This document shows, piece by piece, positions 14,349 through 33,100 of a stretch of 64,000 bases of DNA (the first letter of the stretch is position 1; every line of letters starts with the position of its first letter). The position numbers were made by a program, and so were the translations under genes. The notes beneath the pieces are model-generated. The model saw only the letters and a program-made list of their open reading frames with translations, did not search any database and was not told the DNA's origin. Source of the stretch: a bacterium (GTDB lineage Bacteria; Zhuqueibacterota; QNDG01; JAFGCO01); assembly GCA_016932575.1 (NCBI GenBank), contig JAFGCO010000063.1:13316-77315 (forward strand), written 5' to 3'.

Positions 14349-15758
14349 ATGAGACAGATTCTTGTCTGTTCGGCGATGAATCGTGCCATTCAGATGATTC
14401 GTGACAGTTTTAAAAAGCCGGACCGTGTGACGGCATTGAATGATTTTAAGGTGTGCCATGAAGCGTTAAATGAAAAAAGATACGACTTTTTGTTTATTGA
14501 TGCCGGATTTTTCTCTCCAGCAGAAAATATCAAAGGATATCAGGAACAGCTGAATCCCTTTTGGGAAAAAAATCCAACACTGGAAATTGTTATTTTAACA
14601 ACCAAGGAAACCATACGCCGTACTGTTCATCTTGTGAAAGCCGGTGCAAGCGATTACCTGACATTTCCTCTTGATCCTGTGGAAATCCATTACGTCATGG
14701 ATTCCATTTCACAAGATCTGCAAATTTACTCGGAAATCAAGTACCTCAGGGATCAGTTCTGGCACCGGGATTCTTACGCAATTCTGAAAACGAAAAATTC
14801 AAAAATGCAGGATGTTTTTGAGAAAGTAAGGGCTGTGGCACCTACTGAAAGCACAGTGCTTTTGCTGGGAGAAACCGGAACAGGAAAGGGCGTGATTGCA
14901 AACCTTATTCATCGGCACAGTCCACGCAGTGATAAGCAATTTATCCAGATTCATTGCGGTGCAATTTCAGATTCTATTTTGGAAAGCGAAATGTTTGGTC
15001 ATGAGAAGGGTGCATTTACCGGAGCGACTCGTAGAAAACTGGGAAAGTTTGAAATAGCCAATGGGGGAACACTGTTTCTTGATGAAATCGGTACCATCTC
15101 TCCTAATATGCAGGTAAATTTGCTTCATGTATTGCAGGAACGGTCTTTTCAGCGCGTTGGCGGTGAATTGGATATCCATGTCAATGTCCGCCTGATTGCT
15201 GCCACCAATTCTAATTTATATCAGTTGTCTCAGGAGGGACAGTTCCGTCAGGATCTGTATTTCAGGTTGAATGTCTTTCCGATCATGATTCCGCCTCTTC
15301 GTGAGCGCAAGGAAGATATCCCTATTCTGGTTCGGACATTTTTGGATACCCTGAATCAGGCTTCTGCGAAAAAAGTAAGAGAGTGTGATCCGGCTGTATT
15401 CGAGGCCTTGCATAATTATAACTGGCCGGGTAATATTCGTGAACTTGAAAATGTGATTGAACGGGCTTTTGTTCTTGCCGAAAAAGATCATTTAACCGTA
15501 GAGTGCCTTCCTGCAGAACTGGCTATGGTTTCTGATCCAAATTCTGTTTTTTCCTTCCAGAATTCAGATACTTTGGAAAGTGCAAGAAACCGTGCTGTGC
15601 AACTGGTTGAGAAAGCTTATCTTACCGAGTTACTCACACGGTACCATGGGCGAATTAACCGATCTGCGTCCGCAGCCGGCATTGGCGTTCGGCAGCTTCA
15701 TAAACTCATGACAAAGTATGGACTCGATAAATCTCAATTTAAAGAAATTCATTTTTAA
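14349..15758 (+). CDS. Sigma-54-dependent transcriptional activator with degenerate receiver domain
   Basis: 469 residues in NtrC order: receiver (1-125), AAA+ ATPase (about 145-375), and helix-turn-helix (about 410-465). The ATPase has Walker A (GETGTGKG), the sigma-54 contact loop GAFTGA (residues 221-226), Walker B (GGTLFLDEIG) and the arginine-finger region (FRQDLYFRLNVFPI). The receiver keeps Asp51 (LFIDAG), but the acidic pair after strand 1 is missing (ILVCSAM instead of ILIVDDE) and the conserved Lys is replaced (YLTFPLDP). Classical phosphorylation is therefore doubtful. No kinase is adjacent. A -24/-12 promoter lies 270 bp downstream, so the genes at 16084 and 16415 are the likeliest targets. 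Confidence 0.93.
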   Translation: MRQILVCSAMNRAIQMIRDSFKKPDRVTALNDFKVCHEALNEKRYDFLFIDAGFFSPAENIKGYQEQLNPFWEKNPTLEIVILTTKETIRRTVHLVKAGASDYLTFPLDPVEIHYVMDSISQDLQIYSEIKYLRDQFWHRDSYAILKTKNSKMQDVFEKVRAVAPTESTVLLLGETGTGKGVIANLIHRHSPRSDKQFIQIHCGAISDSILESEMFGHEKGAFTGATRRKLGKFEIANGGTLFLDEIGTISPNMQVNLLHVLQERSFQRVGGELDIHVNVRLIAATNSNLYQLSQEGQFRQDLYFRLNVFPIMIPPLRERKEDIPILVRTFLDTLNQASAKKVRECDPAVFEALHNYNWPGNIRELENVIERAFVLAEKDHLTVECLPAELAMVSDPNSVFSFQNSDTLESARNRAVQLVEKAYLTELLTRYHGRINRSASAAGIGVRQLHKLMTKYGLDKSQFKEIHF

Positions 15759-16083
15759 TCCATAATTCGGAACTAAAAGTTCCTGTTTAATAACAATCGG
15801 TCCTGCAAATTCCTTTTTTTTATTTCACATCATTTGATAATCTTATAATATCATAAATAACAAATAATTAAAACTATATCCATTTGTTAAATTTAAACAA
15901 TTGTCCCCATATTTGAACTCAATATATATCAAGATTTTTCTTCCGTATTGAAATTCGGGCTTCAGAGTTCCGGTCTGCGATTTTTTTATCAAGCGATATA
16001 ATATCATTAAAATTAAGCAATTAAGATATTTGGCATTTCTTTTGCCTTGATGTTTCTGTGAATCAATTATGCACGGAAACGGA
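15759..16083. other. Intergenic region with short hairpin and sigma-54 promoter (325 bp)
   Basis: A 6-bp inverted repeat GGAACT/AGTTCC (15769-15783) follows the regulator gene. The middle is AT-rich without a convincing gene. The end holds the sigma-54 promoter at 16031. An upstream activator site pair is expected here but none was recognised with confidence. Confidence 0.6.
16031..16045 (+). promoter_or_regulatory. Sigma-54 (-24/-12) promoter
   Basis: TGGCATTTCTTTTGC matches the consensus TGGCAC-N5-TTGC with exact spacing, the only deviation being T for C at the sixth base. The invariant GG and GC doublets are present. Predicted transcript start is near 16057, 27 bases before the ATG at 16084. 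It is the only good match noticed in the intergenic regions of the window, and it follows a sigma-54 activator gene. Confidence 0.75.
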
Positions 16084-16437
16084 ATGTCAAAAGCCAAAGA
16101 GATTGTCCGTCTGACAGGTGTCATTACAGTCACGGAAAGTGATCGTAAAGGAAAACCTCTTGAGATTGGGATTGAGACCGATGATTTTTTGACTTATGTG
16201 ATCACCTGTAAGAGAAAAGGCCGGGAGCTGTTTAAACACATCTCAAAAAGAGTCTCGATCACCTGTAAGATTGAAGGTAAAAATTATTTTGGAAACGCGC
16301 TGATTTCGGTTATCGACTATTTACTTTTAAAAGAAGGCAATTCTTCGGTATATCGAATGAATATCCAGGACAATCATATTAAAAATCAAATAGAAAACAA
16401 AAAGGAGATGGATCATGAGAGAAAGAAACGCGTTTGA
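16084..16437 (+). CDS. Small protein of unknown function under a sigma-54 promoter
   Basis: ATG 16084 (MSKAKEIVRLTG) is preferred over the in-frame ATG at 16069 because it follows GGAAACGGA and suits the predicted transcript start. 117 residues, with no signal peptide or membrane segment. The first 85 residues alternate short beta-like stretches (VRLTGVITVTES, LEIGIETDDFLTYVITCKR, RVSITCKIEG), which could be a small beta-barrel such as an OB fold; this is a guess. The tail is charged and ends KKEMDHERKKRV. The last 23 bases overlap the next gene. I do not recognise the family. Confidence 0.7.
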   Translation: MSKAKEIVRLTGVITVTESDRKGKPLEIGIETDDFLTYVITCKRKGRELFKHISKRVSITCKIEGKNYFGNALISVIDYLLLKEGNSSVYRMNIQDNHIKNQIENKKEMDHERKKRV

Positions 16438-16722: not shown

Positions 16723-17793
16723 ATGAAAATCGCAGTGGCTTACAGCAGTAAAAAGGGCCTTATTCAGGAATACCGTAAACGAAAACAAATTCAAAAAATA
16801 CCCGGCGATGAATATTTTGCCGAAGGGGATTCCATTAAAACGATTCAGGCTGTGATAGAAACCCTTTTAAAGATGGGCCATCAGGCTGTGGGCATTGAGG
16901 CGGATAATAATGCTTTTCAGAAATTGTCTGCAGAAGAACCGGATCTTGTTCTGAATATATCTGAAGGATTGACCGGAGATTTTCGCGAGTCTTATATTCC
17001 AATGCTCTGCGAACGTCTGAATTTGCCTTATACCGGTTCGGATCCGCTGACACTTGGTTTATGTCTGAATAAAATGCGAACCAAGGAGATCCTGGGATTC
17101 TATCAAATCCCTACGCCTGCCTTTCAGGTGTTTTATTCTGATAATGCTATGGCAACAGAACATCTTATTTATCCGGTCATTGTCAAGCCCATTGCAGAGG
17201 GCAGCAGTAAAGGAATAAACAATCGATCCGTGGTGAATGATCCGACTGCAGCCAAGTCCGTCATTGCAGAAAAATTATTGAAGTATGAACAGCCGGTGAT
17301 CGTTGAATCCTTTTTGACAGGAGCCGAGTTTACAGTGGCACTTTGGGGCAACGGTGAAGAAGTTGAAGCCCTGCCCATTGTGGAAATCTGTTTTGAGGAA
17401 TTACCCGAAGGCGCCTGGCCCATGTATTCCTATGAAGCCAAATGGGTCTGGGATTCACCTGACAAGCCGCTTCAAATTTTTCAGTGTCCGGCAAAAATTG
17501 ATGCGAAATTAAATCAGGAAATTGTCTCAGTAGCCAAACGCGCTTATTATATTTTGGGCATTCGGGACTGGTGTCGCATTGATATCCGGCTCGACCAGGA
17601 AGGGGTTCCCAATATTCTCGAATTGAATCCATTGCCAGGCATTCTGCCGGACCCGAAAGAAAATTCCTGTTTTCCCAAATCTGCCCGAACTGCCGGATAT
17701 TCGTATTCGGACATGATCGGGCGGCTCATTTCTATTGCCTGCCGACGTGTCGGCTTGATTGAGAATATCAATGCGCCTGTTTATCGTTCATAG
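16723..17793 (+). CDS. D-Ala-D-Ala-ligase-like ATP-grasp protein (first of pair)
   Basis: ATG 16723 follows AGGAG by six bases; the open frame extends to a TTG at 16696 without a site. 356 residues. The ATP-grasp motifs are VIVKPIAEGSSKGI (nucleotide-binding Lys), the Ddl-like VLNISEGLTGDFRESYIPML and PYTGSDPLTLGLCLNKMRTKE, and the metal site IDIRLDQEGVPNILELNPLPG. It should join an amino acid carboxylate to an amine through an acyl phosphate. It is the first gene of an overlapping run with another ATP-grasp enzyme, a GNAT and lysine 2,3-aminomutase, so a role in cell-wall D-Ala-D-Ala synthesis is less likely than a pathway-specific ligase. Confidence 0.85.
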   Translation: MKIAVAYSSKKGLIQEYRKRKQIQKIPGDEYFAEGDSIKTIQAVIETLLKMGHQAVGIEADNNAFQKLSAEEPDLVLNISEGLTGDFRESYIPMLCERLNLPYTGSDPLTLGLCLNKMRTKEILGFYQIPTPAFQVFYSDNAMATEHLIYPVIVKPIAEGSSKGINNRSVVNDPTAAKSVIAEKLLKYEQPVIVESFLTGAEFTVALWGNGEEVEALPIVEICFEELPEGAWPMYSYEAKWVWDSPDKPLQIFQCPAKIDAKLNQEIVSVAKRAYYILGIRDWCRIDIRLDQEGVPNILELNPLPGILPDPKENSCFPKSARTAGYSYSDMIGRLISIACRRVGLIENINAPVYRS

Positions 17794-18769
17794 TGCCCCG
17801 GAGGAATCCGGGACGGATGACGATCCCGACTTGATATCCTCGGTTGCGATTCTTGACCAGGCAAGGGCGGTTCATCAGGCTGCGATTGAATTGGGTTATC
17901 AGTCCCGCTGTTATCCCGTCATTGAAATCACTGAAACCATCCATGACATTATTCATGCAAAACCGGATGTAATATTCAACCTCTGTGAAGAGTATCAGGG
18001 GAGGACCCGTTATGAGTTGAACATCGCCTCTCTGTGGGAACTTATAGGGATTCCTTATACGGGTAATCCTCCACTGACATTGGGACTTGCCCAGGATAAA
18101 GTGATGACAAAACGTCTGCTCCAGGGCAAAAACATCCGGACTCCCGCCTATCAGGTTTTTAAATCTGTCCCTGAAAATGTAATGCTCGAGTTTCCTCTGA
18201 TCGCCAAGCCATCCTGCGAAGATGCCAGCCTGGGGATCATCAGTACACGCGCAGTCAGTTATTCACTTTCTGAATTAAAGAAAAATGTGGAAATTCTGCT
18301 CGAAAAATACCGTCAACCGATTCTGGTAGAACGGTATATTTCGGGACGTGAATTCAACATCAGTGTTTTTGGAATGCCGCCCAAAGTCCTGGCAGTCTCG
18401 GAGCTTGATTTTTCTGAACTTTCTGACACAGAAGCAAAAATCGCCAGTTATGAAGCGAAATGGATGCCGGATCATCCTGCTTATCAAAAAACACCGGTTC
18501 ACTGTCCTGCTGATATTCCTGATGAGCTCAGAATCAAAATTGAAGATGTTGCTACTCAGGTTTTTACTTTACTGGGGGGGCGGGATTACGGACGGGTGGA
18601 TATGCGGATGGATCTGCAAGGAAGACTGTATGTGCTCGAATTTAATCCAAATCCGGACATATCACCGGATGCAGGATTCATCAAAGCGGTCCGGGCATCG
18701 GGATTATCCTATTCTGATTTTGTCGAAGAACTGATCCAGGTTGCTTTTCTCAGGGAGAAAAATGATTAG
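17771..18769 (+). CDS. D-Ala-D-Ala-ligase-like ATP-grasp protein (second of pair)
   Basis: ATG 17771 (MRLFIVHSAPEES) overlaps the preceding gene by 23 bp, indicating translational coupling. 332 residues. Same layout as the upstream enzyme: VIFNLCEEYQGRTRYELNIA, PYTGNPPLTLGLAQDKVMTK, FPLIAKPSCEDASLGI and the metal-binding DMRMDLQGRLYVLEFNPNPD. The two are distant paralogues rather than recent copies. Two different ligases in a row suggest two successive amide bonds or a heteromeric enzyme; the substrates cannot be read from sequence. Confidence 0.85.
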   Translation: MRLFIVHSAPEESGTDDDPDLISSVAILDQARAVHQAAIELGYQSRCYPVIEITETIHDIIHAKPDVIFNLCEEYQGRTRYELNIASLWELIGIPYTGNPPLTLGLAQDKVMTKRLLQGKNIRTPAYQVFKSVPENVMLEFPLIAKPSCEDASLGIISTRAVSYSLSELKKNVEILLEKYRQPILVERYISGREFNISVFGMPPKVLAVSELDFSELSDTEAKIASYEAKWMPDHPAYQKTPVHCPADIPDELRIKIEDVATQVFTLLGGRDYGRVDMRMDLQGRLYVLEFNPNPDISPDAGFIKAVRASGLSYSDFVEELIQVAFLREKND

Positions 18770-19247
18770 ATTACGGGACATACGGCCTGAAGACCGATTG
18801 CTGATTAAGCAGATGCTGAAATCCACCCGGCATTTTACGGGGACTGAAATAGAGACTGCACTTGAATTGGTTGATGCTTTTATTCAAAAGACAGATCTTA
18901 GCTATCAGTTCATTGTTGCTGAAAACACGGGAGGTGACTTTGTCGGATATGGATGCTGGGGTCAGGCGCCATTTACTTACGGAACGTATAATATTTACTG
19001 GATAGCGGTTTCACCCGAAAGCCAGAAGAAAGGTGTGGGCAGCAAAATTCTATCTTACATGGAAACTCAAATTATGAATGCACACGGGAGATTAATTTTA
19101 ATCGAAACCTCTTCAAGTAAAGCGTACCGGGATGCCCGTGCTTTTTATGAAAAGAAGGGATATACAATGGAATCCCGGATTAGAGATTTTTACAAGCCGA
19201 AAGACGACCGGTATATTTATGTTAAACGATTCGACGTTTTCTACTAG
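18762..19247 (+). CDS. GNAT-family N-acetyltransferase
   Basis: ATG 18762 overlaps the preceding stop (ATGATTAG), giving 161 residues. The acetyl-CoA loop is SPESQKKGVGSKILSY and the C-terminal motif is YRDARAFYEKKGYTMESRI. It lies 12 bp before the lysine 2,3-aminomutase gene. In known abl operons an acetyltransferase (AblB) modifies the side-chain amine of beta-lysine, but AblB is larger (about 270 residues) and follows the mutase, so equivalence is only a possibility. Target is probably an amine made in this cluster. Confidence 0.85.
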   Translation: MIRLRDIRPEDRLLIKQMLKSTRHFTGTEIETALELVDAFIQKTDLSYQFIVAENTGGDFVGYGCWGQAPFTYGTYNIYWIAVSPESQKKGVGSKILSYMETQIMNAHGRLILIETSSSKAYRDARAFYEKKGYTMESRIRDFYKPKDDRYIYVKRFDVFY

Positions 19248-19259
19248 GAGAATTAATCC

Positions 19260-20357
19260 ATGGAATCATGGCAATTGCAATTACGTCGTAGTCTTACTGA
19301 AGTAAAAGATCTTCCGGATCATTTCAATATGTCTGTGGAAGATTTGTTTGGTGTGACGCAGGTGTTCAGTATGAAAATTACACCCTATTATCTTTCTCTG
19401 ATTCAAACTGTCGGAGATCCGCTGTTCAAGCAGGTGGTTCCGGATTGCCGCGAACTTGAGAATCATGGTCTGTATACGGATCCTTTATCAGAGGACCGAG
19501 ATTCACCTGTTGCGAATATTGTCCATCGATATCCGGACCGATGTCTGTTTTTAATTTCCGCAGAATGTGCCAGTTACTGCAGGTTTTGTACGCGTAAGCG
19601 TAAGGTCGGGGATTCGAAAAAAATTAATCGGAATCTGATTCATGAAGGGATTCGTTACATTCGTGATCATTCGGAAATTCGAGACGTGATTCTATCCGGA
19701 GGAGATCCGCTGATATTGTCGGATCAGCGGCTGGAAAGCATTCTGCGGGAAATTCGGGCGATTCCTCATGTGGAAATCATCCGTATCGGATCGCGAGTCC
19801 CCTGTTTTCTGCCGCATCGCATCACGCCTGAAATGACGCAGATGCTGCGAAAGTACCATCCGTTATATATGAATGTGCACTTTAATCATCCGGCTGAGCT
19901 CACTCCGTTGGCAATAGAAGCCCTGGGACGTCTGGCCGATGCGGGTATTCCCCTGGGCAATCAGACAGTTCTTTTAAAGGGTGTGAATGATAATCCTCAG
20001 GTCATGCGGCTTTTGATGCAGAAACTGCTCATGGCACGGGTACGTCCTTATTATATTTACCAGGCGGATATGGTGTTCGGCACTGAACATTTCAGAACCA
20101 CAATCCGTAAAGGCCTTGATATTGTACGCGCACTGCGAGGATGGACGTCCGGGCTGGCTGTGCCTCATTATGTCATCGACGCACCGGGCGGAGGCGGAAA
20201 AATTCCTTTATTACCGGAATATGTCAAGAAAATAACGGATGATTCTGTGGTTCTTCGCAATTATCGTGGTAAAACATATGTTTATAAGCAAACCGGGGAT
20301 GTCTCTCAGCATCAGTTGTTGAATGAGGATGCTTGTTTTTTAAAAAGGGAGCAATAA
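19260..20357 (+). CDS. kamA: Lysine 2,3-aminomutase (KamA/AblA family radical SAM)
   Basis: Converts L-lysine to L-beta-lysine using SAM, a [4Fe-4S] cluster and PLP. The cluster motif is CASYCRFC (Cys103, Cys107, Cys110). The PLP lysine is Lys314 in PGGGGK. The two Asp residues that bind the lysine side-chain amine in the clostridial enzyme are conserved (YQAD, Asp270; VIDAPGGGG, Asp307), so lysine is the likely substrate. At 365 residues it is shorter than clostridial KamA (416) and lacks that enzyme's C-terminal zinc cysteines; the size is closer to EpmB, but no EF-P or EpmA gene is near. ATG 19260 follows AGGAG by eight bases. Confidence 0.9.
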   Translation: MESWQLQLRRSLTEVKDLPDHFNMSVEDLFGVTQVFSMKITPYYLSLIQTVGDPLFKQVVPDCRELENHGLYTDPLSEDRDSPVANIVHRYPDRCLFLISAECASYCRFCTRKRKVGDSKKINRNLIHEGIRYIRDHSEIRDVILSGGDPLILSDQRLESILREIRAIPHVEIIRIGSRVPCFLPHRITPEMTQMLRKYHPLYMNVHFNHPAELTPLAIEALGRLADAGIPLGNQTVLLKGVNDNPQVMRLLMQKLLMARVRPYYIYQADMVFGTEHFRTTIRKGLDIVRALRGWTSGLAVPHYVIDAPGGGGKIPLLPEYVKKITDDSVVLRNYRGKTYVYKQTGDVSQHQLLNEDACFLKREQ

Positions 20358-20552
20358 TAAATAGGCGGGTATTTCCATGTCTCTGGTTCTTTCAATATAT
20401 ATACAAAGAATCAATGATTTAAAGTTCGATGTTTTTACTTTTTTCTTGATTGTTGATTCAGGATTTTTTTATTTGACATTTCTCTGCATCTTACCGGTTA
20501 ACCAAAGCACTTTTTTTAATTTTAATTCAATGATTTAACCGATTGTCATCCT

Positions 20553-22298
20553 ATGTTTCGAATCCGACGTATATACGATGATGCATTGCCGGTGAACCGG
20601 GCCGCGATCAGTCAGGTTCAGGAGATCCTGAGAATTCAATTTCCATTGGTGAGTGAAAAAGAAGTTCGTCTATTGCCGGACAAATTGCGGAATCCAATGA
20701 AACACGGATTTCGTGCAGTGCTTCTGGTCGCTGAGGATGGTCGGGGACGAGTCAAAGGATTTGCACTTCTTTATCATGAGCCTATTCTCAGGTTTTGTTA
20801 TCTTGATTATATTTCCTCGACCAGAAAACTGACAGGACACGGTATTGGCGGCGCATTATATGAACGGATTCGCCAGGAAGCCGCGTCTCTGGGTACGATA
20901 GGCCTTTTTTTTGAATGCCTGCCCGATGATCCCAGATTATGCGGGGATCCTGAGATATGCAGGCAGAATCGGGCACGTCTGAAATTCTATGAACGATACG
21001 GAGCATATCCAATCGTTGGAACAAAGTATGAAACGCCGGTTCAGCCAGGTGATGATAATCCGCCCTATCTGATATATGATGCTTCAGGATACGGCAAACC
21101 CTTAAGAAAGCGGCATATCAGGCAAATTGTCCGCGCCATATTGGAACGTAAATATCATGATATTTGTCCCGTATCCTATATCGATATGGTCGTTAATTCG
21201 TTTCAGGATGATCCGGTTCGGATGAGGGAACCACGATATATTCGGATTCTGATGCCTTTGCCGGTGAAGGCAGAAATCACAGATGACCGGAAGATATTAC
21301 TTATCATAAGCGATGTTCATGAAAATCATTATATTCATGAGCGTGGATATGTGGAAGCACCGGTCCGTATAGGGGCGATTTTAAAGGGTATTGAATCCTC
21401 AGGATTATTTAAACAACAAAGAGCAGGACATTTCTCTGAATTTCATATTCGGGCGGTGCATCATCCGGGTTTTGTGGAATATCTGCGCCGGGTATGCCGT
21501 CATATTGAATCCGGGCAATCTGTATATCCGTATGTCTTTCCTTTGCGCAATCAGACCCGTCCGCCTGTGGATTTGCCGATTCGTGCGGGGTACTATTGCA
21601 TGGATACATTCACTCCGATTCATAAGGATGCATTCCGCGTAGCCAAACGTGCTGTGGACTGCGCATTAACCGGGGCAAGGGCGCTTCTGGAAGGTTATCA
21701 GATTGCTTATGCTCTGGTACGCCCCCCCGGGCATCATGCGGAAAAAGCCGCATTTGGCGGATTCTGTTATTTTAATTCAAATGCGGTCGCTGCCAATTAT
21801 CTCAGTGCGCATGGCAGAGTGGCTATTCTGGATATCGATTACCATCATGGCAACGGCCAGGAGGATATTTTTTATGAGCGTGCAGATGTGCTTACTGTGT
21901 CCATTCACGGAAATCCGAAATTCGCGTTTCCTTATTTTACAGGATTCAGGGATTCCAGGGGGCTGGGATACGGAGATAAATTCAATGTCAATTTTCCGCT
22001 TCCGGAAATAGTGGACGGTCAGGTATATCGAATCACTCTCGAAAAGGCCCTGCGAAGCGTGAGGCGATATAAGCCCGCTTTTCTTATCATTGCTTTGGGG
22101 CTGGATACCAGTCAAGGGGATCCGACCGGCTCATGGTCGTTAAAAACATCAGATTTTGAGAAAAACGGAAAAATGATTGGCGACATGAAGCTTCCGGTTC
22201 TTGTGGTCCAGGAAGGCGGATACAACACAAGGAAGCTTGGTGCGAATGCACGCGCGTTTTTTACCGGTCTCTGGAAAGGGATTTACGGTTTTACCTGA
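20553..22298 (+). CDS. GNAT acetyltransferase fused to HDAC-family deacetylase (acetylpolyamine amidohydrolase-like)
   Basis: 581 residues. The first 200 form a GNAT domain (KLTGHGIGGALYERI as acetyl-CoA loop, RLKFYERYGAYPIVG). From about 245 it is a class II HDAC/acetylpolyamine amidohydrolase domain: active-site His394-His395 (RPPGHHAEKAAFGGF), zinc ligands Asp429 and His431 (DIDYHHGNG) and Asp518 (GLDTSQGDP), and the catalytic Tyr557 (EGGYNT). All catalytic residues are present. A single chain able both to add and to remove an acetyl group suggests a protecting-group logic in the pathway, or two steps on different amines. There is no clear ribosome site; start chosen as the first ATG. Confidence 0.88.
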   Translation: MFRIRRIYDDALPVNRAAISQVQEILRIQFPLVSEKEVRLLPDKLRNPMKHGFRAVLLVAEDGRGRVKGFALLYHEPILRFCYLDYISSTRKLTGHGIGGALYERIRQEAASLGTIGLFFECLPDDPRLCGDPEICRQNRARLKFYERYGAYPIVGTKYETPVQPGDDNPPYLIYDASGYGKPLRKRHIRQIVRAILERKYHDICPVSYIDMVVNSFQDDPVRMREPRYIRILMPLPVKAEITDDRKILLIISDVHENHYIHERGYVEAPVRIGAILKGIESSGLFKQQRAGHFSEFHIRAVHHPGFVEYLRRVCRHIESGQSVYPYVFPLRNQTRPPVDLPIRAGYYCMDTFTPIHKDAFRVAKRAVDCALTGARALLEGYQIAYALVRPPGHHAEKAAFGGFCYFNSNAVAANYLSAHGRVAILDIDYHHGNGQEDIFYERADVLTVSIHGNPKFAFPYFTGFRDSRGLGYGDKFNVNFPLPEIVDGQVYRITLEKALRSVRRYKPAFLIIALGLDTSQGDPTGSWSLKTSDFEKNGKMIGDMKLPVLVVQEGGYNTRKLGANARAFFTGLWKGIYGFT

Positions 22299-23234
22299 AT
22301 GAAATCAGAGACTGACAAGAAAATCCTGATTGCCGCAGATTGGGAATATGACACGGATTTTATCAGTTTTCTGGATGCATCTCTCCATGAATATTGTGTT
22401 CATTCGGCGGTTGTACGTGCAGACAATTTAACTTCAGTGATACGTGATATTCAATCCGGACAACTGAAGGTCCTGGCGCTGATTGATCGTGCTTCTGATA
22501 CGAATTCTGCATTTATTCAGCTTCAATCGCTTCTGCATGAAAATGGAGTTCCGATTATTGATCCTGTCGAACAGGTTCACTGGGTATCGGACAAAGCGAC
22601 AATGCATCTCGAATTCCTGGCTGCGGATATTCCCACACCGTATACATTGATCTTGCCTCCGTATGAGGAAAAGAACACACCTGCATTGCATGTGGATGAT
22701 CTGGCAATTCTTGGCCGGCCATTTGTGATTAAGCCGGCCAATACGACCGGAGGGGGGATTGGTGTGGTGGATGGTGCGGAATCCCTTCAGGAAGTTTTGC
22801 ATGCGAGAACTGAATTCAGGTCGGATAAATATCTTATTCAGGAAAAGATAATACCAATTGAAAAAGAAGGGTATCGATTCTGGTTCCGGTCTTTTTATGC
22901 GGGAGGGCAAATTTTCTCAGCCTGGTGGCACGATGAAACGCACAGGTATATGGTGATTGATCATATGCTTATCGAACCGTTCGGATTACATGCGATCTCA
23001 CGAATTATGCGAAAAATTGCCAGGGTGGCAATGCTGACTCTTTTTTCAAGTGAGTTGGTCTGCTGTGCAGATGGCCGATGGGTTGTGGTTGATTATGTCA
23101 ATGAATCCTGTGATATGCGTATTCAGTCAAAACATTGGGATGGTGTGCCGGACAACCTCGTAAAACAGATTGCTGCGGCAATTGCAAAACATGTGGTCTG
23201 TGTTTCACGGTCCAAGATTGATACACTTTCGTGA
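22299..23234 (+). CDS. ATP-grasp protein, third ligase of the cluster
   Basis: The ATG abuts the stop of the fusion gene (TGAATG), so the two are translated together. 311 residues. The ATP-binding strand is PFVIKPANTTGGGIGVV; IQEKIIPIEKEGYRFWFRSF lies on the hinge; the C-terminal metal site is degenerate (WVVVDYVNESCDM, with Asp and Asn where Glu-x-Asn is usual). It is not Ddl-like and belongs to a more general RimK/carboxylate-amine ligase-type group. Substrate unknown. Confidence 0.75.
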   Translation: MKSETDKKILIAADWEYDTDFISFLDASLHEYCVHSAVVRADNLTSVIRDIQSGQLKVLALIDRASDTNSAFIQLQSLLHENGVPIIDPVEQVHWVSDKATMHLEFLAADIPTPYTLILPPYEEKNTPALHVDDLAILGRPFVIKPANTTGGGIGVVDGAESLQEVLHARTEFRSDKYLIQEKIIPIEKEGYRFWFRSFYAGGQIFSAWWHDETHRYMVIDHMLIEPFGLHAISRIMRKIARVAMLTLFSSELVCCADGRWVVVDYVNESCDMRIQSKHWDGVPDNLVKQIAAAIAKHVVCVSRSKIDTLS

Positions 23235-24436: not shown

Positions 24437-24792
24437 ATTTTTATACAAAAAAATATAACAGTATTATAATTTTTATTGCATAAAATTCATTTGATTTATT
24501 ATATTTATATAATTACATTTTTTCTTGTTTTTTACCTATACCCTACAGCCTAATATTCAGCGACCGACAGGGAGAACAGCAGAGGCTTATATCGGGATAC
24601 CATGTGTGTCATTAGGTTATCTTATCAAGATAAAAATGTACTACCATCACCTTTTACCTGAAATTCCTTTTTATCTGCTGTTTTAACATTTTTCCATATT
24701 TAGAATCAGGAAAACGCATAATTCGTTTTCAATGTGTTCTCCAGCCTTAGGGGAAGTGTTGTCGAATTTTGCATCAAGGATGGAAGAACCGA
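24437..24792. other. AT-rich region before the NRPS island (356 bp)
   Basis: No gene is apparent. A weak promoter-like pair (TTGCAT 24476-24481, 17 bp, TTATAT 24499-24504) is the only candidate for the NRPS operon promoter. No hairpin terminator with a T-run was found behind the exchanger gene. Confidence 0.5.
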
Positions 24793-25473
24793 ATGATAGC
24801 GAATATATTGAATAACGTGCAGGATCAATACCCGAGACTGGCATTTGCCGAACAAGCGATTCATTCAGTAAAGGGAACCCTGTTTCCCCAGGAACAAGTT
24901 TTTATTCAAAATGCGGTTTTTAAAAGGCAGAGCGAATTTATTGCGGGGAGGATTCTTGCACGACAGGCAATGAAGCAATTGGGATATCCGGAATTTTCTC
25001 TGCCTGCAGACACTCAGCGTTGTCCGGTCTGGCCCGAGGATATTGTCGGTTCTATTTCACATACAGATCATTATTGCGGCGCCGTTGTCGGGGCCTCTTC
25101 ACACTATCGAAGTATTGGTTTGGATATTGAACAGATCTCCAGGATAAATAAAGCGCTTTGGCCGGTCTTCTGCACCCGGAATGAATTGAACAATTTATCC
25201 AAACTGCCAGTATTAAAACAACAAAAGCATGCTGCCCTTGTGTTCAGTGCCAAAGAAAGTTTTTATAAATGCCACTTTTATCTCCACCGCGTTTTTTTTG
25301 TTTTTCAAGATATTGAAATTGCCTGGAATTGGAAGCGTTCACGATTTTATGTTTCTGTTCTCAATAAGGCTGTTCCTTTATTGCCTTTTAGTTGTCCGGT
25401 TGGATTTTTTACCCTGGCTCGGGATGAAGTATTTACTTTGACGATTCAAAAAACAAATATGACGACCTGTTAA
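24793..25473 (+). CDS. Sfp/EntD-type 4'-phosphopantetheinyl transferase
   Basis: Transfers phosphopantetheine from CoA to the carrier-protein serines of the NRPSs downstream. ATG 24793 follows GGAAG by six bases; an upstream TTG at 24769 is also open. 226 residues with the family motifs in order: FIAGRILARQAM, GSISHTDHYCGAVVG, the magnesium-binding IGLDIEQ, and FSAKESFYK. It resembles the EntD branch. It lies 23 bp before the first NRPS gene. A separate AcpS at 42743 presumably serves fatty-acid synthesis. Confidence 0.92.
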   Translation: MIANILNNVQDQYPRLAFAEQAIHSVKGTLFPQEQVFIQNAVFKRQSEFIAGRILARQAMKQLGYPEFSLPADTQRCPVWPEDIVGSISHTDHYCGAVVGASSHYRSIGLDIEQISRINKALWPVFCTRNELNNLSKLPVLKQQKHAALVFSAKESFYKCHFYLHRVFFVFQDIEIAWNWKRSRFYVSVLNKAVPLLPFSCPVGFFTLARDEVFTLTIQKTNMTTC

Positions 25474-25496
25474 TATCATTGGAGAAATAGAGTATA

Positions 25497-28400
25497 ATGA
25501 ATTCTCAGTTAAAAATGTATCCGCTCACTCATGCGCAAAAACGCATTTGGTACGCTGAAAAAAAATATTCGGATTCGAATTTATGGAATATCATTTTTAC
25601 ACATGATTTTTTGGGTGCGGTTGATGTGGATTTAATGAGAAGGGCCATTATGACCTGTATCCGATCGAACGATGGCCTGCGTTTGCAGTTTAATGAAGCC
25701 AATGGAAATGTGCAGCAGTATGTCAGCGAGGTGGAACCGGAATGTATTGAAATATTTGAATTTGAGAATGAAGTCGAGAAGGATCTCTTTTTAAACAATC
25801 TTTCTGCCAAACCTTTCCATGTCATGGATTCGAATCTTTATTATTTTTGTATTTATAAAGTGAAGTTTCATATCGGTTTTTATATGAAGCTGCATCATAT
25901 TATCTGTGATGCCTGGACAGTTCGCCTCATTTGTGAACAAATCTGGGGCAATTATCAGCAATTTGTCACTGGTGAGTATCATACCGAATCCTATCCATCC
26001 TATATTGATTATTTGACCAGCGAAGCAAAATATTTACATTCACCGGTCATGGAAAAAAATCGCTGTTACTGGCTGGATCTGTTAAGAAATATGCCTGCCA
26101 GCCTCAAACTCAGTCGTCTAACCGTAAAAAAAGGAACTATCGATTCTCAGCGACTGAATTTTTACCTGTCTGAAGACATGACTGATGCCATCCGTGATTT
26201 CTGTGCAGAACAGACTATGCAGCCTTTCCACTTTTTATTTTCAGCATTTCTTTGCTGTTTAAGTAAATGTTCCCTTCAGAAGGAGTTTGTGTTAGGGACT
26301 GTGGTACATAACAGAACCGGACGGAAAGAAAAAAAGACAGTGGGTATGTTTGTAAACACAGTACCCTTTCGTGCTTCGTTGAATGATTTAAATTCATTTA
26401 TTGACCTGGTTCAATCAGTCACAAAAAATATTAAAAGTCATTTGAGACATCAAAAATATCCTTTTGATTTATTATTGACGGATTTAAAAGACACCTACGG
26501 TTATTCCACAGACTGGATGGAAGTGGTGTTTTCTTATGACACCTTCACTCACCCTCTGCCCAATCAATGGCACGCGAATGACAAAGAAATTGTCCCTCTG
26601 GTGCTTCATGTGACAGAGCGGGAATCGAAGACCAAATTAAAGTTCGAATTTGATTTTCATACGGCGGTTTATTCTGAAAAGGAAGTATCCCGGATTTTCG
26701 AATTCATCAAAAATATTATCAGTGAAGTGATCAAAACACCTCAGATTCAATTGAGTGAAATTGAAATGATCAGCAAAGAAGAAAAGACATGCCTGCTGTC
26801 GCATTTTAATCATGAAACACGGCCTCTGGATGACTTTCAACCCATCCATCAGCTCATCTCGAAGCAGGTCAGATTAAATCCGGATCAGAGAGCAATTGTC
26901 ACTCACGATCAAGAGATCACATTCAGGGAATTGGATCAACGGGCGAATTGGATTGCAAACTCAATAAGGCAAAAGGGAATCGGTCCGGGAGATTGTGTGG
27001 GTTGCCTGTTCGATCGGTCTGTTGAATTGATTGTCACTTTACTGGGAATTATGAAGTCAGGAGCCGCATATGTGCCTATCGATCCCTCCTATCCTTCGGC
27101 ACGCATTCTGCATATGATTAAAGCCAGCAGTATGACATGTCTTGTTACTGATGCAGGGCATCGCAATGCCATTGGATCCCGGGTTGAAATAATTGAATAT
27201 CCCTCCGATCCCCAGTCGCAGATTCTTGCTTATTTTCAGGCGCATGAGCCGGATCCGCATGACTTATTATATGTTGTTTTTACGTCCGGCTCAACCGGAG
27301 AGCCCAAAGGCGTGATGGTCGAACACCTGGGATTTTTCAACCTTCTCAAAGTGCACCAGGAAACTTTCTGCACGGCTTCCAGCGACCGGATGACTCAGGT
27401 TGCCAGTCCCGGATTCGATGCTATGGCATTTGAGATTTGGCCCTGTCTTTCAAGAGGAGCAACGTTGTATATTGTCCCGGATATCATTCGAACGGATCCC
27501 TATTATTTAAAATCCTGGATGATTGATCACAAGATTACTTTCACTTATCAACCGACAGCTATCGCTGAGTTTTTAATTCATGAGGAGTGGCCCGACAAAA
27601 CATATTTAAGATGCCTGACCACTGCAGGGGAGAGATTGAAGAAATATCCAAAATCCGAATTGCCATTTCGATTTTTCAATTTGTACGGACCTACCGAGGA
27701 TTCTGTTTGGACTTCGATTGCAGAAATTAAAACCGACAACAAACAATCTGAAAGATATCCTTCTATTGGAAATCCAATTATGAATCATCAGATTTATATT
27801 ACAGATCATGAATTACATTTACAACCCATTGGCATATCGGGCGAACTTTGTATTTCGGGCACCGGATTGGCTCGTGGATATATCAACCGGTCCGAATTGA
27901 CGGATGAACGTTTTATTTCCAATCCTTTCGAACCGGGAGCCCGTCTTTACAGGACGGGTGATTTGGCTTACAGGACATGGGATGGATCCATTCAGTTTAT
28001 CGGGCGGAAGGACAATCAGGTACAAATTCGCGGATTCCGTGTGGAATTGGGAGAAATTGAACATCATTTGCAGAATATGCCCGGTGTCCGCGATGCAGCC
28101 GTACTTGCAGATACAGATAAAAGAAAACAATCCCGGCTTTTGGCTTATCTTGTAGGAGATAATGCTTTGACCGAGCAGCACATCCGCCAGTATTTGCATC
28201 ATCATTTGCCGGATTATATGATTCCAGCCTTCATTCGGCTGTTGGATGAACTGCCCAGAAACGAACATGGCAAATTGAATGTGCAAGCACTTCCGGCACC
28301 GGACAACAGACAAAAGAGCCGGCACATTGCTGCTCCGGAAAATAACATTCAACGTCACCTGGTATCCGCATTTAAAAAATATTTAGATGTCCCTGAGATC

Positions 28401-29987
28401 AGCATTCTGGATCATTATTTTGAATTGGGCGGGGATTCCATCAAAGCCATTCAAATCTCTTATGAAATGCAGAAACTGGGCTATGAAATGCATGTGGCTG
28501 ACTTATATGAACATCCGACGATCGAGTCAATCAGCCGCAAGATCGTACACTTAAAGAAAACAATTCATAAGAAGCATAAGTATCAGGAAATTCCTCTGAC
28601 TCCGATCCAATGCTGGTTTTTTCAACAGAATTTAAAAGATCAGCATCAATGGAATCAGACATTGACCCTTCGTTCAATCCGCCGTCTTCATCCCGAAATG
28701 GTACAAATCGTGATGATAGATCTGATTCGTCATCACCAGACACTGCAATATATTTATTATCAGGATCACAATAAATGGATTCAGGAATTATCCAAAGAAG
28801 GCCACCAGCTCTTTGATTATTTTTTTGAAGATCTCCGTTATACAGATGCTTATGTAGATCATATGCAGGTTCATGTCCATGAGTTACAAAGAAGCATGAA
28901 TATTAAAACAGGCCCTCTGGTAAAATTGGGACATTTTCGTACTTCAGACGGAGATTTGCTGGTTTTTATCATTCATCATCTTGCCGTGGATGGCATTTCA
29001 TGGCGAATCCTTTTGGAGGATTTTATAGAAGGCTATGAGCATGAAATTCAAGGCTTGTATGATCAATATCGACTGCAGACATTGCCGTTCGCGGATTGGT
29101 CTCATCACTTAACGGATTACGCTAAAAATCCATTATTATTTAAGGAATTATCTTACTGGCAGGGCATCGGGTCGGCCCATTCGGCTGTGTTGAGTAAAGA
29201 TCAAATTGTTGGATCCCGGCTGGCGAAAGATATGCTCACGAAAAAAATTATTCTATCAGAATCGGACACCGGGCAGCTTTTAAAAGAGGTTCATCGTGCC
29301 TTTCATACCAATGTCGAGGATATTTTACTGGCATGTCTTGGTTTATCTCTCTATAAATGGCAGGGAATTGAACAGATACGGTTGCATTTGGAGGGTCACG
29401 GCAGGCACCCAACATTTACCGAACTCACAGTATCAAGAACCATTGGCTGGTTTACTTCCATATATCCGGTTCTACTATCAGTGAAAGAGCCGGATAATAT
29501 CGCCTATCATATCAAATCCACAAAAGAAACACTTCGGCAGGTTCCAAATCATGGAATGGGTTACGGAATTCTGAATTATTTGACGCCATCTGACTTGAAA
29601 CGCAACTGGCAAATAGTTAAAATACCAGAAATATGCTTTAATTATCTGGGTGAGCTGGATGCTTCTCTGAAGGACAATTCTCTTGATTTATCTCTGGTGC
29701 TATTTGAGTTGTTCACAAGTCCCGAATCTGAAAAAAGGTACGCTTTGGAAGTCAACAGTATGGTGAGGAATGGTCAACTGGAGATATGGTTCGAATATCA
29801 CAATCAGGAGTTCCGCGAAAAGAACATACAATATCTGACGGATATTTTTTATGACAACTTAATTCGAATGATTTGCTTTTGTCTGGATAAACACGAGACT
29901 GAGTGGACGCCCAGTGATTTTGGAGATGCCACACTGTCTATTGATGATCTTGATACAATCAATCAAATGATTGATTGTATTGAATAG
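25497..29987 (+). CDS. Non-ribosomal peptide synthetase, C-A-PCP-E (initiation module with epimerase)
   Basis: 1496 residues. The N-terminal C domain (1-440) opens YPLTHAQKRIWYAEKKY, like acyl-starting C domains of lipopeptide synthetases such as SrfAA, and has HHIICDAW at residues 133-140. The A domain (about 450-960) has FTSGSTGEPKG (near 595), FDAMAFEIW and NLYGPTEDSVW. Aligned by eye to GrsA, its pocket reads D-A-F-Y-T-A-L-V-W-K, which matches no code I know. The PCP serine is Ser981 in GGDSI, the form found before epimerase domains. The E domain (about 1035-1490) has HHLAVDGISW (His1160-His1161), EGHGRHP, TIGWFTSIYPV and FNYLGEL. Product: an N-acylated D-aminoacyl thioester. Confidence 0.93.
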   Translation: MNSQLKMYPLTHAQKRIWYAEKKYSDSNLWNIIFTHDFLGAVDVDLMRRAIMTCIRSNDGLRLQFNEANGNVQQYVSEVEPECIEIFEFENEVEKDLFLNNLSAKPFHVMDSNLYYFCIYKVKFHIGFYMKLHHIICDAWTVRLICEQIWGNYQQFVTGEYHTESYPSYIDYLTSEAKYLHSPVMEKNRCYWLDLLRNMPASLKLSRLTVKKGTIDSQRLNFYLSEDMTDAIRDFCAEQTMQPFHFLFSAFLCCLSKCSLQKEFVLGTVVHNRTGRKEKKTVGMFVNTVPFRASLNDLNSFIDLVQSVTKNIKSHLRHQKYPFDLLLTDLKDTYGYSTDWMEVVFSYDTFTHPLPNQWHANDKEIVPLVLHVTERESKTKLKFEFDFHTAVYSEKEVSRIFEFIKNIISEVIKTPQIQLSEIEMISKEEKTCLLSHFNHETRPLDDFQPIHQLISKQVRLNPDQRAIVTHDQEITFRELDQRANWIANSIRQKGIGPGDCVGCLFDRSVELIVTLLGIMKSGAAYVPIDPSYPSARILHMIKASSMTCLVTDAGHRNAIGSRVEIIEYPSDPQSQILAYFQAHEPDPHDLLYVVFTSGSTGEPKGVMVEHLGFFNLLKVHQETFCTASSDRMTQVASPGFDAMAFEIWPCLSRGATLYIVPDIIRTDPYYLKSWMIDHKITFTYQPTAIAEFLIHEEWPDKTYLRCLTTAGERLKKYPKSELPFRFFNLYGPTEDSVWTSIAEIKTDNKQSERYPSIGNPIMNHQIYITDHELHLQPIGISGELCISGTGLARGYINRSELTDERFISNPFEPGARLYRTGDLAYRTWDGSIQFIGRKDNQVQIRGFRVELGEIEHHLQNMPGVRDAAVLADTDKRKQSRLLAYLVGDNALTEQHIRQYLHHHLPDYMIPAFIRLLDELPRNEHGKLNVQALPAPDNRQKSRHIAAPENNIQRHLVSAFKKYLDVPEISILDHYFELGGDSIKAIQISYEMQKLGYEMHVADLYEHPTIESISRKIVHLKKTIHKKHKYQEIPLTPIQCWFFQQNLKDQHQWNQTLTLRSIRRLHPEMVQIVMIDLIRHHQTLQYIYYQDHNKWIQELSKEGHQLFDYFFEDLRYTDAYVDHMQVHVHELQRSMNIKTGPLVKLGHFRTSDGDLLVFIIHHLAVDGISWRILLEDFIEGYEHEIQGLYDQYRLQTLPFADWSHHLTDYAKNPLLFKELSYWQGIGSAHSAVLSKDQIVGSRLAKDMLTKKIILSESDTGQLLKEVHRAFHTNVEDILLACLGLSLYKWQGIEQIRLHLEGHGRHPTFTELTVSRTIGWFTSIYPVLLSVKEPDNIAYHIKSTKETLRQVPNHGMGYGILNYLTPSDLKRNWQIVKIPEICFNYLGELDASLKDNSLDLSLVLFELFTSPESEKRYALEVNSMVRNGQLEIWFEYHNQEFREKNIQYLTDIFYDNLIRMICFCLDKHETEWTPSDFGDATLSIDDLDTINQMIDCIE

Positions 29988-30176
29988 AGAATGTTTGCAC
30001 TTATATGATGCATCGTTTGGAAGACTAAAATCAAAGAAGTTAAATTCGGTCCTATCAATGATTGGCTTATCGGTTTATAAATGCAACATTTTTATGCGGT
30101 CTTTTTTATTCGGAGAACTGATAATTTTCTGAGCTTTTTTGGTGATATCTGACAAATTATCTATATCAGGAATCAG

Positions 30177-33100
30177 ATGAACAATTCAGCAAAAATACAG
30201 CATATATTGCCCTTGACGCCGATGCAGGAAGGTATCCTGTTTAATTATCTGCAATCGCCGAATTCTGAAGCTTATTTTGAGCAGACGGCTTTTAATATTC
30301 ATGGCGATATTGATATGGAAACTGTATTTCACAGCTTTGAAATATGGGTGAAACGGCATGATATTTTCAGGACGCTGTTTATATACAGGGATGTGGAAAA
30401 ACCAAAACAGATCGTGCTTCATCATCGGAAATGCACTGTATTTTTTAACGATCTTTCGTCGGAAGATGAAACAGGCATCGGCGCCCTCATCGAGGCCTAT
30501 CAAAAACAGGACAGAAAGCGGGGTTTTGATTTAAGCCGCGATATGCCTATTCGTCTGGCTGTATTCAGAATCGGAAAAGAAATTTACCGCTTCATTTTCA
30601 GTTTTCATCATATAATTTTGGATGGCTGGAGTTTCGGGCTTTTGATGAGTGAATTTTTTGAGATTTATCAACCGTTGCGTCAGAATCAGAAAGTCCATTG
30701 TGAAAAGAATCATTCGTTCAGGCAGTATGTCTTGTGGCTGCAAAAACAGAACTTCAATCATGCCTATGCTTATTGGACCCGTTATTTGAATGATTATGAG
30801 AATCCAGTGAAATTACCCGGCAGAATGACAACCAGGTATTCCTCTTCTTCATACGACAGGCAGGTGAAAGACATTGCATTTACAAGGGCTGTTTGTCAAT
30901 CGATTCAAGAGCTGACAAGAACAAACCAGATTACCCTGAATACCTTCATTCAGGCCATCTGGGGAATTCTTCTGCAGCGATATAATAATACAGACGATGT
31001 GGTTTTTGGTACGGTCGTGTCGGGCCGGCATGCCGAGATAGACAATATTGATCGTACTGTCGGGCTGCTGATCAATGCGGTTCCTGTTCGGGTTACAGCT
31101 TCACCGCAAATGACGGTTACCGACCTGTTTCAAGCTATACACACGCGATATGCCGCTTCCAGCCAATATGATTTTTGCAGCTTGTCAGAGATACAATCGC
31201 GGTCTGGTTTTTCAGGCGATTTGATCAATCATGTACTGGTTTTTGAAAACTACATGAAGGCAGATGTAGTGAAAGCATTCCTGGGTGATACACATGAATT
31301 TCCTTTTTATATCAGCGATGTGTCCTTATTCGAACAGACCAATTATGATTTTAATCTGCTTGTGATTCCTGGTGAGCGGTTGCAGATTAAAATTATTTTT
31401 AATGCGAAGATTTTTTCTTCACAGACTATTGAACGCATCCTGGGACATTTCCGAAAGACGGTTCAGGAAGTGCTGAAGAATCCGAAAATCAAGATTCATA
31501 TGCTGGATATTCTTCCTGATACAGAAAAGAAGCAATTGATGCAGAATTTTCAGGCAGAAACCGTAAACATGCCTCCTTTTAAACCGCTTCAATGCTGGTT
31601 TGAGGAGCAGGCAGAGAAATCGCCTGACAGAACGGCTGTTTGCGATGAATCAGGAGAAATCACCTACGGCGAGCTTAATACCCTCGCCAATCAATGGGCC
31701 TGGTATTTGAAAGAGCTGGGTATCGGTCCCGAGGTGATTGCCGGTGTTTTCATGGAGCGCTCCATTGATCTTATTGTCGGAATGCTGGCCGTTCTGAAAG
31801 CGGGCGGCGCTTATTTGCCTCTGGATATCAGTACACCCAAGGCGCGTGTAAAAAAGATCCTTCGGTCCAGCCGCATGAAGTGCATGCTGACGCAAGCGTC
31901 GCATGTTGATAAGATATCTTCTGAGATTCCAATAGTGATTATTGATCATGTGAAAGATATTTCCGGGTATTCTGTTGAAAACCCTCCGGTTTCTGCTGAA
32001 GCCGGTCATCTGATGTATGTGATCTATACATCCGGCTCCACAGGCGAGCCCAAAGGGGTAATGGTCGAGCATGGCGGATTTCATAATTTGCTTTGCAACC
32101 TTAATTATCTTTTTCATCTTTCTCCTGAGGATCGATGCTCGCAAGTTGCCAGTCCTTCATTTGACGCGATGGGATTTGAAATTTGGCCTTGTTTTACCAA
32201 TGGCTCAGAACTATATTTTGTGCCAGGCCATATATGTAAAGATCCTATTCAAATATTTCAATGGATCAAAGACAATAATATAACATTTTCATTTCAAGTC
32301 ACAGCCATTTCTGAATTATTAATTTCAATGGATTGGCCTGATTCATCATGTCTGCGTATTTTATGCACAGGGGGTGATCGTTTGAAAAAATATCCTCCAA
32401 GAAATTTACCCTTTAAATTATATAATGTATATGGACCTACGGAAGATTCTGTTGTCACATCCTGTTGTGAAATTCATGCCTGTGATTCTAAATTTTATAC
32501 ACCGCCCATTGGATATCCTTTAAATGATCATTTTATATATATATTGGATAATTTTAAAAGAATACAACCGATTGGCTGTGAAGGTGAGTTGTTTATAGGC
32601 GGCGCTGGATTGGCGAGAGGATATATTAATGATGAAAAGCTGACAAAGCAGAAATTTATTCAGATCCCCATTTTTAAAAATGGACGATTATATAAAACAG
32701 GGGATATTGTCAGCTGGCTTGAAAATGGTGCCCTTGAATATATTGGAAGAAAAGATTTTCAGGTGAAGATAGGCGGCCATCGTATTGAATTGGGAGAAAT
32801 TGAATCACTTCTTATGAACATGCCCGGAATCCAAGATTGTGTTGCACATGTTATGCAAAATGATTCAGGCATTGTTTCTCTTGGCGCCTATTACAGCGCA
32901 GATCGGATTTATGAATACAAAGATCTAAAATCATATTTACAAAAAGAACTTCCTATTTATATGGTTCCTGATTATTTTTTTCAACTTGAGCAATTGCCTT
33001 ATAACACGAATGGGAAAATCGACCGGAAAATGCTGCCTAAACCCCGGAGATTATCCTCCGGTCCTAAGAATCGGCAAGGACCCCGCAATGCTGTTGAAGC

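Follow-up and report, generated by a model that had tools for sequence, protein, structure and literature searches.

A conserved gene set of ATP-grasp ligases, a lysine 2,3-aminomutase and acetyl-transfer enzymes, and its possible role in the synthesis of an acetylated beta-lysine amide

Six adjacent genes of an uncultured bacterium, in a window of 64,000 nucleotides (the whole stretch of DNA that was analysed), include a set of five that combines ATP-grasp ligases, a KamA-type aminomutase and acetyl-adding and acetyl-removing enzymes. The set is real, widespread and conserved, and is found in about nine phyla. From its clustering and co-occurrence and from the catalytic and substrate residues of its products, we consider it slightly better than an even chance (about 0.55) that it encodes a pathway, independent of non-ribosomal peptide synthetases (NRPS), to an acetylated amide containing beta-lysine, either a peptide or a peptide-polyamine. 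The enzyme families are known; to our knowledge, their combination is not. No description of the module was found in the open literature searched, which did not include the likeliest place for one, the work of Iyer et al. 2009 (Mol Biosyst) on amidoligases, and the novelty of the module is not certain.

Gene organization and upstream region

The ORF listing of the window confirmed all six genes on the + strand (16723-23234), here designated A to F. A (16723..17793) and B (17771..18769, with its frame open from TTG 17759) encode putative Ddl-like ATP-grasp amide ligases, each of its own clade. These are followed by C (18762..19247, open from TTG 18741), a RimI-like GNAT acetyltransferase; D (19260..20357), a KamA-type lysine 2,3-aminomutase of a module-specific clade; E (20553..22298), a fusion of a GNAT to a zinc deacetylase of the acetylpolyamine amidohydrolase group; and F (22299..23234), a third, accessory ATP-grasp protein. 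A/B and B/C overlap, C and D are 12 nt apart, E and F touch, and a gap of 195 nt separates D from E. The gene content given by an earlier, sequence-only reading of this DNA is upheld by the ORFs, by Pfam and by predicted structures, and its description of the genes as mostly overlapping or nearly touching agrees with these spacings.

A sigma-54-dependent response regulator of the AtoC/NtrC type (14349..15758, +), identified with Pfam and NCBIfam, lies upstream and likely controls the operon; homologues of it also neighbour A at a number of loci within the phylum. Between regulator and operon is the single exact match in the window to the sigma-54-type core TGGCAY-N5-TTGC (TGGCAT-N5-TTGC at 16031..16045, +; 0.49 expected). 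Because no such site was found upstream of A in 11 relatives, this motif is a weak candidate for the operon promoter. A 122-aa ORF between motif and A (16069..16437, +), with no match in Pfam or NCBIfam and no counterpart in related loci, possibly heads the transcript. Within the window's phylum the module is found together with F and with a sigma-54 response regulator, to which a PAS histidine kinase is added in some cases, and it is probably under the control of this two-component system there. Such control would make a stress metabolite or solute the likeliest role of the module.

Downstream (24769-34559), a PPTase gene precedes two NRPS genes, one encoding C-A-T and a second condensation-type domain, the other C-A and a terminal NAD-binding reductase, which indicates that their product is probably a reductively released dipeptide; genes for a TonB receptor, a YfiR-like protein and a histidine kinase come after. 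The NRPS genes (25497-34559) were set aside as part of the pathway, since no NRPS family recurs beside the module elsewhere.

Conservation of the gene set

When 84,980 species genomes were scanned with E, at least 584 relatives came up. The best 80 loci were analysed further, and in all of them the whole fused protein was matched at 54-63% identity. A, B, C and D were all found with E in 33 of these 80 best loci, with genes mostly overlapping or nearly touching, a clustering far beyond chance. Five gene orders occur among the 33 clusters (D-A-B-C-E, D-A-B-E-C, A-B-C-D-E, E-A-B-C-D and D-E-A-B-C). The clusters come from Chloroflexota, Myxococcota, Thermodesulfobacteriota, Pseudomonadota, Planctomycetota, Bacteroidota, Acidobacteriota and Ignavibacteriota. 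The phylum of the window itself comes in addition, and it also contains a MAG whose record names it candidate division KSB1. Phylum names follow the source records, nearly all of which are MAGs, some possibly misbinned. E and C form one ORF in 6 of the same 80 loci. When 957 neighbour ORFs were clustered, the families of A/B (73 members), D (29) and C (25) stood out, the next family having 6; no other neighbour recurred to a like extent.

Co-occurrence extends beyond physical linkage. In 39 genomes the module is missing from the E locus; 30 of these have a full-length A (>300 bits) elsewhere, mostly adjoining a second ligase. Of 247 Desulfobacterota genomes, 83 have A, 22 have E and 21 have both (Fisher p=2.8e-10, counting species, which are not independent events); among the window's relatives the co-occurrence count is 8 of 8. 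The co-conservation check proposed with the sequence-only reading thus came out in its favour, with linked sets in eight named phyla and the window's own and with A in 21 of 22 genomes having E. The six-gene unit with three ATP-grasp proteins stands only in part: A-B-C-D(-E) recurs across phyla. The first searches gave 118 loci, and F was present at 3, each from the window's phylum; it is an accessory seen with the module only there.

Most genomes of the window's phylum carry A-B-C with D, with or without E, and A-B-C occurs without a nearby KamA in three of them (G028, G035 and G036). Pairwise distances, in which species kinship is included, correlate at 0.94 for A-D, 0.82 for B-C and 0.79 for A-B, and at 0.32-0.61 for E against the other module proteins, A and D giving the lowest value. 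A-B-C makes up the core of the module, and D is usually present as well; E, a strong partner, is sometimes unlinked or absent.

Relatives of the ligases were also seen in other settings. In locus L184 (8545-10422), an A-like ATP-grasp domain is fused to a domain of peptidase S58, the family of beta-aminopeptidases, and adjoins a stand-alone deacetylase; this fusion is possibly an independent link of A-like ligases to beta-peptides. Other genomes of the window's phylum encode a methyltransferase domain fused to a Ddl-like ATP-grasp (L186:6732-8651; L188:7010-9007), and in Desulfobacterota A or B carries an N-terminal extension of about 260-410 residues that matches nothing in Pfam (L212:2197-4404; L214:3740-5527). 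A solitary A-like gene lies on the symbiotic plasmid pNGR234a (L221:8893-9903), and similar genes lie on three other rhizobial plasmids; no module partners are annotated beside them in the stretches viewed, for which the gene table is incomplete, and a plasmid search with E gave matches to its deacetylase half only. Four contigs of a viral collection (L217-L220) likewise carry A-like genes.

Sequence features of the encoded enzymes

A and B match Dala_Dala_lig_C of Pfam (124.5 and 100.8 bits), and in a tree they form two separate clades with similar internal groups, far from the Ddl of the same genome. Residues were read from an alignment with E. coli DdlB and are given in DdlB numbering. The ATP/Mg residues K97, K144, E180, E187, K215, R255, D257 and N272 are invariant in both ligases, and E270 is kept in 59 of 60 aligned sequences, one B having D. 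The substrate side has changed. Both ligases have lost Y216. In A, its place is taken by W, E, R or K in nearly all sequences and that of L282 by D or C; position 150 is S/T, and S281 and E15 are retained. In B, every sequence has W at 216, L282 is replaced by G, nearly all sequences have Ala at 150 and most have Ala at 281; E15 varies there, in an N-terminal region whose alignment is uncertain. In DdlB, E15 is the donor-amine glutamate, S281/L282 form the acceptor-carboxylate site and E15/S150/Y216 a triad. This pattern suggests that A still joins two amino acids, with B using different partners.

D consists of Radical_SAM and LAM_C domains (Pfam) and aligns with the lysine 2,3-aminomutase of C. 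subterminale (2a5h) at E 6.5e-113. An alignment of 50 KamAs, 48 belonging to the module set, shows no variation in the CxxxCxxC motif, R112, D270, D307 or K314; in the 2a5h enzyme these positions include the Fe-S cysteines, the PLP lysine (K314) and the two Asp for the lysine side-chain amine. The residues that had been described as intact in this one protein are hence constant throughout the alignment, which supports D as a lysine-type KamA.

C matches Acetyltransf_7 (Pfam). E matches Hist_deacetyl at 242 bits and, weakly, a GNAT family (Pfam), with the GNAT at about residues 1-180, recognized as such by predicted structure (Z up to 15), and the zinc deacetylase at residues 267-572. The latter is nearest to acetylpolyamine amidohydrolases (6phr, E 3.9e-63) and has the His-His, Asp-X-His, Asp and Tyr catalytic set of that group; of the 88 sequences compared, 97% or more have H394, H395, D427, D429, H431, D518 and Y557 at each of these positions, bearing out the intact deacetylase site attributed to the fusion. 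Opposite activities joined in E, together with the E-C fusions, point to acetylation and deacetylation around one substrate, on which the acetyl group may shield an amine while ligation proceeds, cap the finished product or serve in recycling. F has no Pfam match; its predicted structure (pLDDT 88) is that of an ATP-grasp protein, with Ddl as the nearest in Foldseek (E 2.6e-14), followed by LysX/ArgX.

Proposed pathway and alternative explanations

In the proposed pathway, D would convert L-lysine to beta-lysine, as its invariant residues suggest. A would then join two amino acids, one probably beta-lysine, given that it keeps the donor-amine glutamate and the acceptor-carboxylate serine of Ddl and loses other D-Ala residues. 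B, in which the acceptor-carboxylate contacts are mostly lost, may extend the product with a partner possibly without an alpha-carboxylate; we infer this division of roles between A and B from sequence alignment. C would acetylate an amine, and E, through its deacetylase and second GNAT, may strip acetyl groups from a lysine- or polyamine-like tail or attach them to it, whether as protection, as activation or in recycling. The pathway is consistent with the observations that the genes cluster and co-occur, that E and C are fused in some loci, that A, B, C and D diverge in parallel, and that intact catalytic residues are combined with altered substrate residues. Counting against it, E is often unlinked and its distances correlate poorly with those of A and D (0.32). 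Moreover, the three genomes with A-B-C and no adjacent KamA indicate that beta-lysine may not be essential to the A-B-C core.

The individual enzymes could instead serve known functions. A reading of A and B as D-Ala-D-X ligases, whether ordinary or of the resistance type, is scarcely credible: the solved structures nearest to them are indeed Ddl, but they score 144.1 and 119.1 for the Ddl subfamily TIGR01205 (NCBIfam; curated cut-off 245.65), a canonical Ddl is encoded on a separate contig of the same genome (C67, 428.8 bits), and D-Ala residues are lost in both. Judged from these scores and residues, A and B are not cell-wall Ddl, which answers the doubt raised with the sequence-only reading. 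An abl-like pathway, in which D, C and E would make the osmolyte acetyl-beta-lysine and A and B would act separately, is improbable. A KamA and a GNAT do resemble ablA-ablB, and acetyl-beta-lysine is a known solute (PMC1224877), but D falls short of the AblA equivalog (472.9, cut-off 525.4; NCBIfam), C has no match to AblB (TIGR03827) at E<=0.001, and a complete operon, with AblA at 784 bits and an adjoining transporter and AblB (327.6 bits), lies on contig C24; in addition, A diverges in step with D. D and C were set aside as AblA and AblB on these grounds, and the distinction from abl that had been drawn earlier holds. The distinction from EF-P lysylation is less firm. EpmA is encoded in the genome, on another contig (339.8 bits, above its cut-off), indicating that some KamA probably supplies EF-P, and neither D nor two paralogues scored full-length with NCBIfam pass the EpmB cut-off. 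Nevertheless, it is very improbable that D is the EpmB of this organism and its neighbours incidental, as D scores 235.8 for the EpmB equivalog (cut-off 369.3; NCBIfam), about half its AblA score, clusters with A-B-C across many phyla, and has no efp beside it at the locus. The genome has a further short KamA paralogue on contig C6, of a type carried by relatives without the module; in a quick tree with some long branches, the module KamAs form two groups apart from AblA and from the C6 paralogues, and we are unsure how many origins these would represent. The C6-type KamA is a likelier candidate for supplying EF-P than D, for which EF-P modification is unlikely; D was accordingly not retained as EpmB.

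A further alternative concerns the product. B might ligate a beta-lysyl donor to a polyamine, C and E then acetylating and deacetylating the polyamine part of a beta-lysine-polyamine conjugate. The kinship of the E deacetylase with acetylpolyamine amidohydrolases and the loss of S281/L282 from most B favour this; no polyamine-synthesis gene recurs among the 957 clustered neighbours, and deacetylases of this group also act on acetyl-lysine. We regard such a conjugate as unlikely beside the broader acetylated beta-lysine amide that we prefer.

Significance and comparison with known systems

Taken as a whole, the module may constitute an undescribed, horizontally spread pathway of mostly anaerobic bacteria, in which two dedicated ATP-grasp ligases and a cycle of acetylation and deacetylation yield a new class of acetylated peptides or polyamine conjugates of beta-lysine; this fuller picture we hold tentatively, at a little under even odds. 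Ligase A is present in about a third of the Desulfobacterota sample and the set in many other groups. If the proposed pathway is right, a metabolite common among bacteria of sediments and the subsurface has so far escaped notice, and ligases A and B are new tools for making beta-amino-acid amides. Pseudodesulfovibrio pelocollis SB368, a named strain, carries the gene set, making the idea directly testable.

The module shares features with several known systems. Like the abl operon, it has a KamA adjoining a GNAT, around lysine and beta-lysine, but it adds two or three ATP-grasp ligases and a deacetylase, its C is not AblB, and its D belongs to another clade in a genome with a separate abl. EF-P beta-lysylation by EpmA and EpmB also employs a KamA-family enzyme making beta-lysine, whereas D is not EpmB by score and stands apart from both epmA and efp. 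With Ddl, A and B have in common the ATP-grasp fold and the ATP/Mg residues; they differ in their D-Ala specificity residues and in being two paralogous clades that travel as a pair. The C-terminal domain of E has all the catalytic residues of acetylpolyamine amidohydrolases, from which E is set apart by its N-terminal GNAT, conserved with the whole length of the protein in all 80 kept relatives. Synthesis of N-acetylglutaminylglutamine amide, an acetylated dipeptide made without NRPS, likewise relies on a GNAT and an ATP-grasp ligase; its asparagine-synthetase-like amidotransferase has no counterpart among the six proteins by Pfam, and the module differs from it in using lysine instead of glutamine chemistry.
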